Source of the DNA: Chelativorans sp. YIM 93263
GTDB lineage: Bacteria; Pseudomonadota; Alphaproteobacteria; Rhizobiales; Rhizobiaceae
NCBI RefSeq assembly: GCF_028767125.1
Contig: NZ_JAKCWP010000003.1
Span: 62,001 to 126,000, forward strand
DNA length: 64,000 nucleotides
Direction: 5' to 3'
Part shown: positions 13,176-31,442 of the stretch, piece after piece
Layout: every line of letters begins with the position of its first letter
Position numbering within the stretch: the stretch's first letter is position 1
Program-made: the position numbers and the translations under genes
Notes under the pieces: model-generated
What the model was told of the DNA's origin: nothing
What the model saw: the letters and a program-made list of their open reading frames with translations, nothing else
The model's database searches: none

Positions 13176-13775
13176 TTAGCGCAACATCGGCCAGAGCGTT
13201 GCTGCCAACGCGATCCCCATGACGATGTTGAACCATTTCAGGCGCACCGGATCGGCTAGAAACCCCCGCAGGGCGACGCCGAAGCCAGCCCAGACCGACA
13301 CGCTGGGAAAGTTCACCAGTGTGAAGGCCAGCGCCACGAGCAGGATCGAGACGAAGGGCGCCTGGGGATTGGTGTAAATGGCCATGGCTGTGACGGCCAT
13401 AACCCAGGCCTTTGGATTGACCCACTGAAAGGCTGCCGCCTGAAAGAACGTCATCGGACGGGCCGCACCGGTGGCACCCTGGCTGCCGGTGGACCGCGAC
13501 ATCGCGATGCGCCACGCCAGATACAGAAGATACGCGCCGCCGGCGATCTTCAACACCAGGTTCAATTGCGGATAGGCTGTCAAAAGCGCGCCCAGTCCGA
13601 AGCCCACCGCCAGAAGCAGCGAGGCGAAACCCGCTGCAATTCCAAGCATATGCGGGATCGTGCGGATAAAACCGTAATTCACACCTGACGCCAGGAGCAT
13701 GAAGTTGTTCGGTCCCGGTGTCACCGACGAGACGAAGAAGAATACCAGGAGGGCGAGGAAGACGTCGAGGGACAA
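13176..13775 (-). CDS. LysE/RhtB-family amino-acid exporter
   Basis: A 199-residue inner-membrane protein with about six hydrophobic segments and the family signature SSVTPGPNNFMLLASG near the N-terminus (about 17-31), followed by GFASLLLAVGFGLGALL. These proteins export amino acids or their analogues. It starts with TTG only four bases after the ilvH stop codon, and the GGAGGGG that would serve as its ribosome binding site lies inside the end of ilvH. It is therefore very probably translated from the ilvB-ilvH transcript, and branched-chain amino acids or their precursors are reasonable candidate substrates (inference). Confidence 0.85.
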   Translation of the reverse strand: MSLDVFLALLVFFFVSSVTPGPNNFMLLASGVNYGFIRTIPHMLGIAAGFASLLLAVGFGLGALLTAYPQLNLVLKIAGGAYLLYLAWRIAMSRSTGSQGATGAARPMTFFQAAAFQWVNPKAWVMAVTAMAIYTNPQAPFVSILLVALAFTLVNFPSVSVWAGFGVALRGFLADPVRLKWFNIVMGIALAATLWPMLR

Positions 13776-13779
13776 GCTC

Positions 13780-14352
13780 CTACATCCCCTCCGGTCCGCG
13801 GTTCACGGCCGCCACGCCGGTCCGGCAGACCTCGACCAGGCCGAGCGGCTGCATAATGGCGATGAACTGCTCCACTTTGGATATCCGCCCGGTAATCTCG
13901 AAGATGAAATGTTCCGTATTCGCATCGATCACCTGCGCCCGGAACGCATCGGCCAGGCGTAGTGCTTCGACGCGGTCGTCGCCGTTTCCGCTTACTTTTA
14001 CCAGAGCCAGTTCCCGCTCGAGCGGGCGGTCGTGGCCGCGCTCATGGGCAGTGACGGTAAGATCCACGACGCGATGAACAGGAACGATGCGCTCAAGCTG
14101 GTGCTTGATCTGCTCCAGCACGTGAGGCGTACCGCGCGTTACGATAGTGATCCGCGAGAGATGCCGCTCGTGCTCGGTTTCGGAGACGGTGAGGCTGTCG
14201 ATATTGTAGCCGCGGCCCGAGAACAGACCGATCACACGAGCTAGCACCCCCGGCTCGTTATCGACCAGGACGGCGAGCGTACGGGTCTCGCTCCTCTCCG
14301 TCTCACTGGTAATGAAATAGGCTGAGCCGGTTGGCTTTAGCTGGGCGTTCAT
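13780..14352 (-). CDS. ilvH: Acetolactate synthase small (regulatory) subunit
   Basis: A 190-residue regulatory subunit that binds valine and activates the catalytic subunit. An N-terminal ACT domain (about 25-100, with TLAVLVDNEPGVLARVIGLF and GYNIDSLTV) is followed by the C-terminal IlvN/IlvH domain (about 105-180). It lies 50 bases after ilvB in the same orientation and is followed at once by the LysE-type gene, so the three form one operon controlled by the attenuator at 16255-16401. The short ilvB-ilvH gap is AT-rich and could hold a secondary promoter, but none is clear. Confidence 0.96.
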   Translation of the reverse strand: MNAQLKPTGSAYFITSETERSETRTLAVLVDNEPGVLARVIGLFSGRGYNIDSLTVSETEHERHLSRITIVTRGTPHVLEQIKHQLERIVPVHRVVDLTVTAHERGHDRPLERELALVKVSGNGDDRVEALRLADAFRAQVIDANTEHFIFEITGRISKVEQFIAIMQPLGLVEVCRTGVAAVNRGPEGM

Positions 14353-14402: not shown

Positions 14403-16163
14403 CTAAACCAGCGAGCGTCCCTTGGAGTCGATGGCGTTCGCCACAGCCTCGTCCGTCGCCTCGTCGGGCAGGAGCATTTCATTGTGCGCCTTGCCTGAGG
14501 GGATCATGGGGAAGCAGTTGGCGAGATTGGCCACGCGGCAATCAAAAATCACCGGCTTGTCGACCTCGATCATCTCGTTGATGGCGTCATCCAGTTCGTC
14601 CGGTTTTTCGCAGCGAATGCCGTGACCGCCATAGGCCTCGGCGAGCTTGACGAAATCAGGCAGCGCCTCAGTATAAGAATGCGAGAGCCGGTTGCCGTGC
14701 AAAAGCTGCTGCCACTGGCGGACCATACCCATGTACTGGTTGTTGAGAATGAAGATCTTGATCGGCGCGTTGTGCTGCACAGCCGCGCTCATCTCCTGCA
14801 TGGTCATCAGCACCGAAGCGTCGCCTGCGATATCGATCACCAACGCGTCCGGATGGGCGATCTGCACGCCCAGTGCCGCCGGCAGGCCATACCCCATCGT
14901 GCCGAGACCGCCTGAGGTCATCCACCTGTTGGGCGCCTCGAAGCCGAAATGCTGTGCCGCCCACATTTGATGCTGGCCGACCTCGGTGGTGATGTAGACG
15001 TCGCGCTCCTTGGTCAACTCATAGAGCCGCTGGATCGCATATTGCGGCATGATGACTTTATTGTTCGGTTTGTAGGCCAGCGAGTTGCGCCCGCGCCACT
15101 TTTCGATCTGTTCCCACCAGGGCTTGAGCGTTTTCTTCTCTGTCTTGGCGCCGGCGCGCCACAGCCGCACGAGATCCTCCATCACCCGGCCGGCATCGCC
15201 AATTATTGGGATGTCGACATGGACGTTCTTGTTGATCGAAGACGGGTCGATGTCGATGTGAATCTTCCGAGAATTGGGTGAGAAGGCGTCCAGGCGCCCC
15301 GTGATGCGGTCGTCGAAACGCGCGCCAATGCACAGCATCACATCGCAGTCGTGCATTGCCATATTGGCTTCGTACGTGCCGTGCATGCCCAGCATGCCGA
15401 GCCAGCTTTCACCCGAGGCCGGATAGGCGCCGAGGCCCATCAGTGTCGAGGTGATGGGGAATCCGGTGAGCTCAACCAATTCGCGCAGAAGATGGCTTGC
15501 CTCAGGCCCTGCATTCACCACGCCACCGCCGCTATAGATGACCGGCCGCTCGGCCGTCGACATCAATTCGATCGCCTGTTTGATCTTTTCCTGATCGCCC
15601 TCGACCCGCGGGTGATAGCTCGTGCGGGGTGCCGTTTGCGGCGACACGTAGGAGCCCTTTGCGAACTGCACGTCCTTGGGGATATCGACGACCACGGGCC
15701 CGGGCCGCCCGGTCTGGGCAATGTGAAAGGCCTGATGCAGGGCGGCGGGCAGTTCGCTGATGTCGCGCACCAGCCAGTTATGTTTGGTACAGGGTCTGGT
15801 AATGCCGACCGTGTCGCACTCCTGAAACGCATCGGAACCGATCAGCGCCGTCGGCACCTGGCCCGAAATACAGACCAGCGGAATCGAATCCATCAAGGCG
15901 TCCTGCAGCGCCGTAACAGCGTTGGTGGCACCCGGCCCGGAGGTGACCAGCATGACGCCAACCTTGCCCGTCGAGCGGGCATAACCTTCCGCGGCGTGGC
16001 CGGCGCCCTGCTCATGGCGGACGAGGATGTGCTGGATGTCATCCTGCTGGAAAAGCTCGTCATAGATCGGCAGCACCGCACCGCCTGGGTAGCCGAAAAC
16101 GTGCTCGACGCCGTTGTCGCGCAGCGCCTGTACCACCATTTCCGCGCCCGTCATCTCCTGCAT
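14403..16163 (-). CDS. ilvB: Acetolactate synthase large (catalytic) subunit
   Basis: ThDP- and FAD-dependent enzyme of branched-chain amino acid synthesis; it makes acetolactate or acetohydroxybutyrate from pyruvate. It shows the N-terminal PYR domain (GYPGGAVLPIYDEL, catalytic Glu in RHEQGAGHAAEG), the central FAD-binding domain (about 195-330) and the C-terminal ThDP domain with GDASVLMTMQEM and NNQYMGMVRQW. ATG at 16163 gives 586 residues and has GGAG six bases upstream. ATG at 16205 (600 residues, weaker AGGA site) is an alternative. It is preceded by a leader peptide gene and a terminator-type hairpin. It is followed by ilvH. Confidence 0.96.
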   Translation of the reverse strand: MQEMTGAEMVVQALRDNGVEHVFGYPGGAVLPIYDELFQQDDIQHILVRHEQGAGHAAEGYARSTGKVGVMLVTSGPGATNAVTALQDALMDSIPLVCISGQVPTALIGSDAFQECDTVGITRPCTKHNWLVRDISELPAALHQAFHIAQTGRPGPVVVDIPKDVQFAKGSYVSPQTAPRTSYHPRVEGDQEKIKQAIELMSTAERPVIYSGGGVVNAGPEASHLLRELVELTGFPITSTLMGLGAYPASGESWLGMLGMHGTYEANMAMHDCDVMLCIGARFDDRITGRLDAFSPNSRKIHIDIDPSSINKNVHVDIPIIGDAGRVMEDLVRLWRAGAKTEKKTLKPWWEQIEKWRGRNSLAYKPNNKVIMPQYAIQRLYELTKERDVYITTEVGQHQMWAAQHFGFEAPNRWMTSGGLGTMGYGLPAALGVQIAHPDALVIDIAGDASVLMTMQEMSAAVQHNAPIKIFILNNQYMGMVRQWQQLLHGNRLSHSYTEALPDFVKLAEAYGGHGIRCEKPDELDDAINEMIEVDKPVIFDCRVANLANCFPMIPSGKAHNEMLLPDEATDEAVANAIDSKGRSLV

Positions 16164-16254
16164 GCTCGTCTCCTGCCATTTAAGCGCCGGCGCTCGCTGG
16201 TCCATCTCTTTATCCTGCCCCGTTTGTCTATCGTCATGTCGTCGTTCGGCCAAT

Positions 16255-16277
16255 AAAAAAGGCCCCCGAAGGAGCCT
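16255..16277 (-). terminator. Attenuator terminator hairpin in the ilv leader
   Basis: Read on the minus strand, AGGCTCC-TTCG-GGGGCCT forms a 7-bp stem (one G-U pair) closed by a stable UUCG tetraloop and followed by six T residues. It lies between the leader peptide stop codon and the ilvB start, 50-90 bases before the gene. That placement is expected for a transcription attenuator and not for the end of an operon. Confidence 0.88.
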
Positions 16278-16309
16278 GTCTTTCGCACATGAGCTGCTTC
16301 CGCCGGCGG

Positions 16310-16363
16310 CTACGCCGCCTTGCCCATGTGCATTCCTACTACGATAATAAGCTGTGTGTTCAT
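16310..16363 (-). CDS. ilv leader peptide (attenuation peptide)
   Basis: A 17-codon reading frame, MNTQLIIVVGMHMGKAA, with five consecutive branched-chain codons (Leu-Ile-Ile-Val-Val, codons 5-9). It ends 33 bases before an intrinsic terminator that itself precedes ilvB. Ribosome stalling at these codons when charged Leu-, Ile- or Val-tRNA is scarce would be expected to prevent terminator formation. There is no Shine-Dalgarno sequence; the predicted promoter places the transcript start only about 2-4 bases before the ATG, so the peptide is probably translated from a near-leaderless mRNA. The seven bases GCACATG in codons 11-13 can pair with CATGTGC after the stop, and GGCGGC/GCCGCC flank the stop codon. 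Confidence 0.85.
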   Translation of the reverse strand: MNTQLIIVVGMHMGKAA

Positions 16364-16372
16364 GGTAGCGGA

Positions 16373-16401
16373 CAATAAGGCGCATCGCTCCGCAATGTCA
16401 A
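16373..16401 (-). promoter_or_regulatory. Predicted sigma70-type promoter of the ilv operon
   Basis: On the minus strand, a perfect -35 box TTGACA (16396-16401) lies 17 bases from TTATTG (16373-16378) as the -10 element. Transcription would start near 16365-16367, just before the leader peptide ATG at 16363. Confidence 0.6.
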
Positions 16402-16604
16402 CGCTATAAATAATAGAAGCGACGGGAGAGTTCCGGTGGCAAGCGGTGAGTAAATGAGTTTGAGGCCCTTCCCCGGTGCCGTGCAGGACATCGCGTATTC
16501 TCACCATCGGGAACGCATTAATCCCGTCTCAACCATCCCGCCTTATTCGGCCTTAACCCTCTGCGCCTATGCTTGCGCAAAATAGAACAGGGGAAGAGGC
16601 TTTC

Positions 16605-18410
16605 ATGGATACTGGCGGGTCTGCCGGCTCAGGCGAAACACCTGTGCAGGACCGGCGCGAGGCCGGACAGCCGCAGCGTCGCGTGCTGGGCCATGTGGTT
16701 CAATGCGACGGCGCGCGTGCGATCATTGCAACAAGCCTCAATACGAACGAATTATCCGCGAGCGGAAACTGGACCGTCGGCAAGGTGATCTCCATCAACC
16801 TGGGATCAATCCGCACGGTTGGGCTTATCTACGCCATCGAGCGCCCGCAACGGCGCTGGGATGACGACGGCAGCAACCCTATCATGATCTTTGTCGAGCT
16901 GATGGGTGAGGTGCGCGACGAAAACGGCGTACCCGCGTTTGACCGCGGCATCACCGAATACCCCCATTTGGGTGCGATCGCGCACCGCATCCGCGCGCGC
17001 GACCTGCGCGCCATCTACGATCTGGGCGGGCGGCGGTCCGTCACGGTCGGTAACCTTTCCCAGGATAGCGCGGTTGAAGCCTGCGTGGCGGTGGATGAGG
17101 CTCTCAACCGGCACTTCGCCGTCGTGGGCACGACGGGTGTCGGCAAATCGAGCGCGGTGTCGCTTCTCCTGCGTAAAACCATTGCCACGCGTCCGGATTT
17201 GCGTGTGCTGATTCTTGATCCCCACAACGAGTTCGCCTCGTCGCTTCCGGGCCATTGCGTACGGATCGACACCAACTCGCTCGACCTGCCGTTCTGGCTT
17301 TTCAGACTGGAGGAACTCGTGGAGGTCCTTTACCGCGGCCGCGATCCGGTCTTGGAGGAAGTGGAACTTCTGCGGGATCTCGTTGGCCATGCCAAGCAGG
17401 TCTATAACACATCCACCGGCACGAGCATTCTACGCCGCGGCACGGACCATGGCGGGCTGACCGCCGATACGCCCGTGCCTTACCGCATGACCGATATCAT
17501 CAGCGAAATCGACGAGCGCATCGGCCATCTGGATGCCAAGAACGAGCGTCCCCACTACCGCCAGCTTCGCACGCGCATCGAGTCTGCCATGGCTGATCCG
17601 CGCTATCGCTTCATGTTCGCATCGCGCCTTATCGAGGATTCCATCCATGAAACGATAGGCCGGATATTCCGCGTACCGAGCGAGGGCCGACCGGTGACCT
17701 GTTTCGAAATGGCGGGGCTCCCCTCGGAGGTGGTGAACTCGGTCTGTTCCGTGCTGGCGCGGCTCGCTTTCGACCTCGCGCTGTGGAGCGACGGAAAGCT
17801 GAAGCTTCTCGTCCTGTGCGAAGAAGCGCACCGCTATATGCCGGCGGACACGCGCCTTGGCTTCGCGCCTACGCGCCATGCACTCTCGCGTATAGCCAAG
17901 GAGGGACGCAAATACGGCTGCTATCTCGGAGTGGTGACCCAACGCCCTGGTGATCTCGACCCGACAGTGCTTTCGCAGTGTTCAACCATTTTCGCCATGC
18001 GGCTCGCGAACGAGCAGGACCAGGCAATAATCAGGTCGGCTATTGCGGATTCGGCCGCCTCGACCCTCAGCTTTTTGTCCTCCATGGGACAACGGGAAGC
18101 GATCGCCTTCGGCGATGGCGTGGCGACGGCCATGCGCATGAAGTTTGAAAAGCTGCCGGAACATCTTCTGCCCGGCGCAAAAGTTCCCGACGGTGAGCAG
18201 GCGGACAGCGGATCGATCGACGATGTCGAGTTGGCGCCGATCGTCGCGCGAATGCGCTATACCGGAAAGCGGAGCCGAACGGGCGCGAGCGTGTATAGCG
18301 CGGAGCGACAAAAGCAGTCGGAACCGCTGCAGAAAGTACCGGTCTATGAGGAACCGCGCGGCGCCGCTCCAGGTCGTCCACCCTCCGCCTATAGCCCTTT
18401 TCGGCGGTAG
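16605..18410 (+). CDS. HerA-like ATPase (HAS-barrel, DUF87)
   Basis: A 601-residue DNA-translocase-like ATPase of the HerA/FtsK superfamily. An N-terminal HAS-barrel region (about 27-110, from LGHVVQCDGARA) precedes Walker A GTTGVGKSS (175-183), LILDPHNEF, Walker B LLVLCEEAH (about 400) and a sensor region with GVVTQRPGDLDPTVLSQC. The C-terminal tail (about 520-601) is basic and low in complexity. In archaea HerA works with the nuclease NurA in DNA end resection; in bacteria some HerA proteins act in phage defence with a nuclease or Sir2 partner. No such partner is beside it here, so its role is open. ATG at 16605 follows GAGG. It converges on the MscS gene. Confidence 0.87.
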   Translation: MDTGGSAGSGETPVQDRREAGQPQRRVLGHVVQCDGARAIIATSLNTNELSASGNWTVGKVISINLGSIRTVGLIYAIERPQRRWDDDGSNPIMIFVELMGEVRDENGVPAFDRGITEYPHLGAIAHRIRARDLRAIYDLGGRRSVTVGNLSQDSAVEACVAVDEALNRHFAVVGTTGVGKSSAVSLLLRKTIATRPDLRVLILDPHNEFASSLPGHCVRIDTNSLDLPFWLFRLEELVEVLYRGRDPVLEEVELLRDLVGHAKQVYNTSTGTSILRRGTDHGGLTADTPVPYRMTDIISEIDERIGHLDAKNERPHYRQLRTRIESAMADPRYRFMFASRLIEDSIHETIGRIFRVPSEGRPVTCFEMAGLPSEVVNSVCSVLARLAFDLALWSDGKLKLLVLCEEAHRYMPADTRLGFAPTRHALSRIAKEGRKYGCYLGVVTQRPGDLDPTVLSQCSTIFAMRLANEQDQAIIRSAIADSAASTLSFLSSMGQREAIAFGDGVATAMRMKFEKLPEHLLPGAKVPDGEQADSGSIDDVELAPIVARMRYTGKRSRTGASVYSAERQKQSEPLQKVPVYEEPRGAAPGRPPSAYSPFRR

Positions 18411-30939: not shown

Positions 30940-31104
30940 GAAATTACTCCCTCCTGTCGATTCGGCACTTTCAATACCGAACAATACCACAAGCGAACAG
31001 ATCACCTGTTCATCTTGTATTGAAGGCTGGAAATTCTTTATTATAGGTCAACGAAAAATCTCCAATATTGAAACGCCACCCTTTTCCTGTCACCGTGACG
31101 GGCC

Positions 31105-31110
31105 TATATA
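31105..31110 (+). promoter_or_regulatory. Probable -10 element of ssrA
   Basis: TATATA, inside CCTATATAGG, lies about 7 bases before the expected 5' end of the tmRNA precursor. A matching -35 box at 17 bases (TTTTCC, 31082-31087) is poor, so the assignment rests on position. Confidence 0.45.
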
Positions 31111-31114
31111 GGGG

Positions 31115-31434
31115 ACGTCAGCCGTGAGCTGACTATGGCGATAAACTGCCGATGCAATAAGCCTATCGGACCCGGGGGCGGTACCCGGCGCCTCCACCAG
31201 AAACCGCCAGTCCATGACGGCTTCTGATGGGGGCGAAACAGGATCGACGAGGGTGTAAAGATCGGACTTTCGCTCGGCATGGTACCACCGATATCGGACC
31301 GAACCTTATAGTTGCCAACGACAACTATGCGGAAGCACGTCTCGCCGCGTAAGCGGTGCGATAGCTTCAATTCAAGCCTTAGGCCGTCGCAGGTCTAAGC
31401 GGGGTTCGGAGGCACCTGGCAACAGAAGCCTCCA
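31115..31434 (+). ncRNA. ssrA: Transfer-messenger RNA, circularly permuted two-piece form
   Basis: tmRNA rescues stalled ribosomes and tags their products for proteolysis. The acceptor piece comes first: a GTCAGC/GCTGAC hairpin, then a T-arm CCGGG/CCCGG with loop GGCGGTA, and the 3' end CGCCTCCACCA (to 31199). After a short spacer the coding piece starts at 31229 with GGGGGCG, which pairs with CGCCTCC of the acceptor piece to make a 7-bp acceptor stem (one G-U). It carries the resume codon and tag frame ANDNYAEARLAA (31314-31352) and ends with a GGAGGC/GCCTCC hairpin (31408-31433). This gene order, with the 3' half first, is the hallmark of the alphaproteobacterial permuted gene. The spacer 31200-31228 must be removed. 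sspB, which delivers tagged proteins to ClpXP, lies 3 kb downstream. Confidence 0.95.
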
Positions 31435-31442
31435 CTTCCCCT

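Follow-up and report, generated by a model that had tools for sequence, protein, structure and literature searches.

Attenuators of branched-chain operons

Leader peptides with branched-chain codons, followed by a terminator ahead of ilvB or ilvI, are already described from the alphaproteobacteria, as far as the accessible text of the relevant papers goes. An "ilvB leader peptide" appears in Corbino et al. 2005 (PMC1273637), where it is credited to the earlier description by Vitreschak et al. 2004, the ilvIH cis element of S. meliloti is listed in PMC2573895, which cites Vitreschak et al. 2004, and attenuation of the Caulobacter ilv operon (ilvBN) is shown in PMC4117421. The M. tuberculosis ilvB1 attenuator, as presented in the accessible part of PMC13236596, has LVVI codons and a proposed antiterminator. 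In having a terminator and branched-chain control codons in front of ilvB1 it resembles the locus treated here. It differs in its 166-nt leader and its actinobacterial host, and in that part of the paper we found no statement of a leaderless frame. A leaderless attenuator leader is described in rhizobia as rnTrpL/peTrpL of Sinorhizobium meliloti, where the available portions of PMC7298713 and PMC10117765 give rnTrpL as starting with its ATG. That system differs from ours in its tryptophan control of trpE(G) and in the action in trans that is demonstrated for rnTrpL.

In the literature that we searched, with subscription papers mostly outside its scope, we found no paper that links the small RNA Atu_C8 to ilv or that terms an ilv leader leaderless. 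The original Atu_C8 sRNA paper is reportedly that of Wilms et al. 2012. Canestrari et al. 2020 are said, going by their title, to treat leaderless polycysteine attenuators of mycobacteria, which would share a leaderless short frame with the present leader and differ in the amino acid, cysteine, and in the operons. The accessible text of PMC5913331 only lists the Atu_C8 family, RF02502, among test families. The ilv leader described below is one more alphaproteobacterial ilv attenuator. What the comparison adds here is the bimodal distribution of start mode, the geometry between a hairpin that we call P2 and the last Leu, Ile or Val (LIV) codon, and a test for the antiterminator.

The ilv leader and its surroundings

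The window, that is, the whole stretch of 64,000 nucleotides of Chelativorans sp. YIM 93263 that was analysed, carries the leader on its reverse strand, with ilvB on one side and a divergent HerA-like gene on the other; features below are on that strand unless stated otherwise. An earlier note had described a 17-codon frame with five adjacent Leu/Ile/Val codons, a UUCG terminator with six Ts ahead of ilvB, and a TTGACA-17-TTATTG promoter, and all of these are present. The -35 element TTGACA (16396..16401) comes from a consensus scan, and the same scan together with the sequence gives a -10 element (16372..16378) that reads as TTATTG at a spacing of 17 or, alternatively, as TATTGT (16377-16372) at a spacing of 18. 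The leader peptide frame, MNTQLIIVVGMHMGKAA (16310..16363), runs for 17 codons from an ATG at 16363-16361 to a TAG at 16312-16310, its start being probably leaderless, and contains the adjacent codons CTT ATT ATC GTA GTA (LIIVV). The 5' arm of hairpin P2, GCACATGGG (16323..16331), lies within leader codons 11-14 and forms a helix with the 3' arm, CTCATGTGC (16285..16293), which was identified by covariation and by comparison of own with swapped arms. Between them the inner hairpin P2a, GGCGGC GTA GCCGCC (16305..16319), likewise seen by covariation, contains the leader stop codon.

The intrinsic terminator stem, AGGCTCC TTCG GGGGCCT (16260..16277), was found by scan, by covariation and by own against swapped arms; it comprises a 5' arm at 16277-16271, the loop TTCG at 16270-16267 and a 3' arm at 16266-16260, and the sequence continues in a T run (16255..16260), so that the whole occupies 16277-16255. 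Counted from the ATG, the T run ends after about 110 nt, which agrees with the length that had been proposed for a released leader. Taken on the window alone, the promoter and terminator scans give a modest excess over shuffles, 2 versus 0.3 and 2 versus 0.7.

Downstream there are encoded ilvB, the acetolactate synthase large subunit (14403..16163; NF006581, 1202.8 bits, cut-off 974; the start codon is our choice), ilvH, the small subunit (13780..14352; NF008864, 220.7 bits, cut-off 119), and a LysE-type translocator (13176..13775; Pfam PF01810, 73.3 bits, cut-off 25.6), to which all NCBIfam matches fall below their cut-offs. The lysE gene that had been counted as part of the operon is present here but is not a constant member, since a homologue was found in the 2.5 kb downstream at 18 of 80 ilvB loci; ilvH lies within this flank at 76 of the 80.

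Some further features of the neighborhood may be recorded. The ilvB reading frame continues upstream without a stop through the entire leader, as far as an ATG at 16385 (16385-16163), and a gene caller could for that reason place the ilvB start ahead of the promoter-proximal leader. The Val-Val-Gly codons of the leader (16342-16334) read GTAGTAGGA, and their AGGA stands six bases 5' of an in-frame ATG, codon 13 (16327-16325); this combination, which is conserved across much of our alignment A1, could be a Shine-Dalgarno-like site for pausing or starting inside the frame. The divergent gene (16569-18410, forward strand) has a HerA central domain (Pfam PF01935, 129.7 bits), and the NCBIfam anti-phage HerA models match it only far below their cut-offs. 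A two-piece alphaproteobacterial tmRNA is found at 31078-31436 on the forward strand (RF01849, 300.1 bits).

Membership in Rfam family Atu_C8

The ilv leader is a member of a known Rfam family, RF02502 (Atu_C8), whose entry gives a Rhizobiales sRNA gene only, with no function, and which is here tied to ilvB. The match (16244..16364) is full length, covering model positions 1-122 of 122, and scores 98.6 bits (E = 2.8e-20) against a gathering score of 50. A scan places RF02502 in 76 of 101 related genomes, over the cut-off in 62, and the distribution follows kinship, with 59 of 61 genomes of the window's family positive versus 17 of 40 from other families of the order. Of the 80 named ilvB loci we chose 20 for scanning, and in 17 of these RF02502 is found immediately ahead of ilvB; at the Agrobacterium locus L098 the match ends 83 nt 5' of the ilvB match. 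One genome (G044) has two RF02502 copies (L005 and L076), in an assembly of 7.4 Mb in 1890 contigs that could be a mixed one.

Three or more Leu, Ile or Val codons stand side by side in a frame at 77 of 77 RF02502 loci (the 76 and the window), but because those loci were found with a model that contains the leader stretch, the fairer test is the set anchored on ilvB. There, with the frame start required to lie 120-260 nt ahead of the ilvB match, an LIV leader frame is found at 69 of 80 loci versus 51 of 1600 dinucleotide shuffles. Loss of the frame and terminator in relatives, which the earlier note had set beforehand as the outcome that would tell against it, was looked for in this comparison and not found: relatives keep the frame, at the numbers of loci just given, and the terminator. 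The comparison across relatives thereby supports the anatomy of a branched-chain attenuator ahead of ilvB-ilvH. The terminator finder found no hairpin at five loci (L115, L117, L123, L128 and L134). Ahead of ilvB of Bartonella tribocorum (L152) an LIV leader frame was not found, and Bartonella tamiae (L109) has one.

For the comparisons that follow, dropping one leader where the finder failed (L083), one with a misplaced start (L126) and identical stretches left 135 leaders with a terminator, 88 in the window's group and 47 in the other. Subtracting L055, L062, L068, L132 and L146 from the 88 gives a group of 83, and L064, which has no P2 by the rule used, is left out of the pairing tests, so that these cover 87 + 47 = 134 leaders.

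The filing of Atu_C8 as an sRNA gene raises the question of whether it is an independent or dual-function sRNA, acting in trans as RNA or as peptide. Rfam's own description would fit that, as would the precedent of rnTrpL, a leaderless attenuator RNA which acts in trans according to the available text of PMC7298713 and PMC10117765. The position ahead of ilvB in the loci scanned and the control codons favor a role in cis, with which a role in trans would nonetheless be compatible, and we consider the sRNA account rather unlikely.

Two probable start modes

The spacing between TTGAC and the ATG of the leader is bimodal, forming two classes with a near-empty gap at 40-53 nt. In the window's group, TTGAC is found 35-38 nt before the ATG in 83 of 83 distinct leaders (3, 15, 40 and 25 leaders at the successive distances), where the ATG nearest 37 nt was taken if several are in frame, and where the tight range is partly by definition, since we set the class limit of 41 nt ourselves; the 40-53 gap is not so defined. 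In the other 47 leaders the distance is 53-67 nt in 42 and 42 nt in one, and four have no TTGAC. Shine-Dalgarno-like matches of at least 4 bases are present in 13/83 leaders of the window's group and in 38/47 of the others. The window's group also has C before the A of the leader ATG, at -1 in 73/83 and at -2 in 70/83, and it is the promoter-to-ATG distance that is constant while the ATG-to-LIV distance varies.

From the fixed promoter spacing, the CA at the start and the small number of Shine-Dalgarno-like sites, we infer leaderless ilv leaders in this group. The promoter spacing in the window would put the transcript start at the A of the ATG or 1-2 nt before it. The near-leaderless start proposed in the earlier note thus agrees with the comparison, although the 2-4 bases that it allowed before the ATG appear slightly too many. 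The ribosome binding site that it singled out as missing is indeed absent, but this is the rule in the window's group and no peculiarity of the window.

A transcript start well upstream was the other outcome that the earlier note named as telling against it, and it was judged here by promoter spacing. A promoter further upstream, or a start more than 5 nt before the ATG, would make the leader an ordinary led one. The constancy of the -35-to-ATG spacing and the scarcity of Shine-Dalgarno-like sites in this group, set against a second class that is led, make that very unlikely. A like spacing ahead of the trp leaders in the same genomes argues in the same direction. Of 40 trpE loci used for calibration 35 were matched, in a search limited to 34-40 nt, and 30 of those 35 have TTGC or TTGAC 35-36 nt before the ATG; the rhizobial rnTrpL is published, in the text accessible, as starting at its ATG.

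The class boundary does not coincide fully with the family. The Rfam set contains 60 leaders from the window's family: 55 belong to the short class and 4 (G016, G025, G049 and G054) to the long one, with 1 (G019) ambiguous. The ambiguous one, L055, could start either at 39 nt, which is the leaderless distance, or further down behind GGAG, at 60 nt, and is possibly an intermediate between the two start modes. Isolated short-class leaders occur as well (L146, G087 and G081). A single origin of the leaderless state was considered on a first ilvB tree (62 of 81 rows labelled), which requires 2 changes with the same-family exceptions left out and the labels of L126, L132 and L136 set to unknown by hand. 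With 12 rows added, exceptions included (73 of 93 labelled), the short class requires 5 changes, and the single origin was dropped. Constraining the 35 leaderless rows together on the ilvB tree is not rejected (p-AU 0.83, with L146, L203 and L204 set apart after inspection of the tree), a result that does not by itself make them a clade. The trp leaders L188, L192 and L193 have the short 35-nt spacing. Two of their genomes, G016 and G025, carry ilv leaders of the led class, and the third, G072, belongs to another family; a joint change of mode in the two leaders is thus not required.

Hairpin P2 and the position of the ribosome

A pairing of GCACATG inside the peptide with CATGTGC after it had been proposed from the window. 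This helix, P2, is confirmed and covaries over 83 related leaders. The structure made up of P2, P2a, P2b and the terminator has 93.6% of its cells paired over the 83 leaders, compared with at most 56.1% for slid versions, and both sides change in 14 of its 25 pairs, in 128 cells versus 40 in shuffles. Taken singly, the P2 helix has 98.9% of cells paired and 4 of 9 pairs changed on both sides, P2a has all 6 of its 6 pairs so changed, and the terminator stem covaries too. Own arms also pair better than swapped ones, with z = -14.6 for P2 in the window's group and -17.2 in the other, and -13.0 and -11.7, respectively, for the terminator. The consensus fold of the led-group alignment A2, at -0.73 kcal/mol, has five terminator pairs and does not recover P2, probably because a good alignment is lacking.

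Counting from the first nucleotide of the final LIV codon, P2 starts 6-8 nt downstream in 81 of the 87 leaders from the window's group, and in 29 of the 47 from the other. Footprints of 9-15 nt are generally assumed for the ribosome. With 12 nt between the A-site codon and the ribosome edge, invasion of P2 begins at the last LIV codon in 67 of 82 leaders, and at a Val codon in 80 of 82; an edge at 9 nt moves this to the next codon and one at 15 nt to the preceding codon. Since P2 begins so shortly after the last LIV codon, usually Val, a ribosome stalled there would break P2. A hairpin that a stalled ribosome could open beside the control codons is present, then, in P2, its opening being computed from this geometry.

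Search for an antiterminator

The earlier note could find no clear antiterminator pairing, and this is borne out: none was detected over 134 leaders, in a test of limited power. Its positive control, 20 of 37 trp leaders (the ones in which the same finder had located a terminator), gave z = -1.9, which has the expected sign but is weak, and for that reason absence is not demonstrated. Pairing of the P2 3' region with the terminator 5' arm is no better than in shuffles (mean z +0.19 in the 87 leaders and +0.20 in the 47), reaching p of at most 0.05 in 4/87 and 0/47. The same pairing is weaker than that of swapped partners, with z = +2.2 and +2.5 (987 and 1000 of 1000 permutations). Even when P2 is masked, it is the terminator that prevails in full-length folds.

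Several candidates were tried and rejected. The window's own candidate (16268..16300) pairs GAAG and AGCT (16300-16297 and 16295-16292) with GGCT and CTTC (16276-16273 and 16271-16268); it appears in the fold of an unfinished transcript with the leader masked to nt 36, the helix alone having -9.4 kcal/mol, and is no better than shuffles (p 0.17) and shows no covariation. A core pairing AGCC:GGCU seen in the alignment shows none either, though 86.3% of its cells pair. An extension of P2 into the terminator 5' arm, noticed by eye in the folds, is unsupported. Another by-eye pairing, of the terminator 5' arm with upstream sequence once the ribosome is at the last Val, arises also with shuffled strands of like make-up and hence is not used as evidence. 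Finally, 20 segment pairs were tested as antiterminator in three groupings, with none supported.

These results bear on whether the attenuator may work without a classical antiterminator, P2 and the terminator acting in sequence and the stalled ribosome acting, for example, via polymerase pausing at P2 or through an unspecific free P2 strand. The two strongly covarying hairpins suit such an account, and so do the failure of any upstream segment among the 20 pairs to co-evolve with the terminator 5' arm and the weaker own than swapped pairing with that arm. Weighing on the other side are an invariant core that cannot show covariation by its nature (slid versions pair in 8-47% of cells, well under the figure above), the weakness of the test as judged by the trp leaders, and a weak opposite signal at the terminator 3' arm (R2:T3, z = -2.4 over 134). 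On balance we find this account improbable. A further reading, in which there is no fixed antiterminator helix, only P2 and the terminator are selected, upstream pairing of the terminator 5' arm is mildly avoided and a Rhizobiaceae group has shifted to leaderless starts, we hold to be quite unlikely. If it were true, attenuation would depend on pausing or kinetics of the polymerase under the control of the ribosome, in place of the textbook choice between two exclusive helices.

Proposed mechanism and significance

With good confidence, we regard the element as an attenuator that controls transcription of the ilvBH operon in a ribosome-dependent way, and its form in this group as probably a leaderless, group-specific version of the ordinary attenuator switch. 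Transcription would begin at or within two bases of the leader AUG, and the ribosome would start on this leaderless end without a Shine-Dalgarno site. When charged Val, Ile and Leu tRNAs are plentiful, the ribosome would reach the stop codon and the terminator would form, releasing, as the anatomy suggests, a leader RNA of about 110 nt, which would be Atu_C8. A stall at the end of the LIV run would have the ribosome cover the P2 5' arm and open P2, and by the P2 geometry the last codons, nearly always Val, should be the most sensitive. The freed P2 3' strand would supposedly then delay the terminator so that polymerase reads into ilvB, and this is the weak link of the model. Both the transcript start and the amino-acid response of the leader are predictions.

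Should an antiterminator truly be lacking, an exception to the textbook model of attenuation would be called for. For the family, the finding offers a likely job for Atu_C8, an Rfam sRNA family that was described but unexplained. It also presents an attenuator family in which the same downstream RNA probably follows either a leaderless or a Shine-Dalgarno-led start, which makes a natural experiment on how the mode of start affects attenuation.
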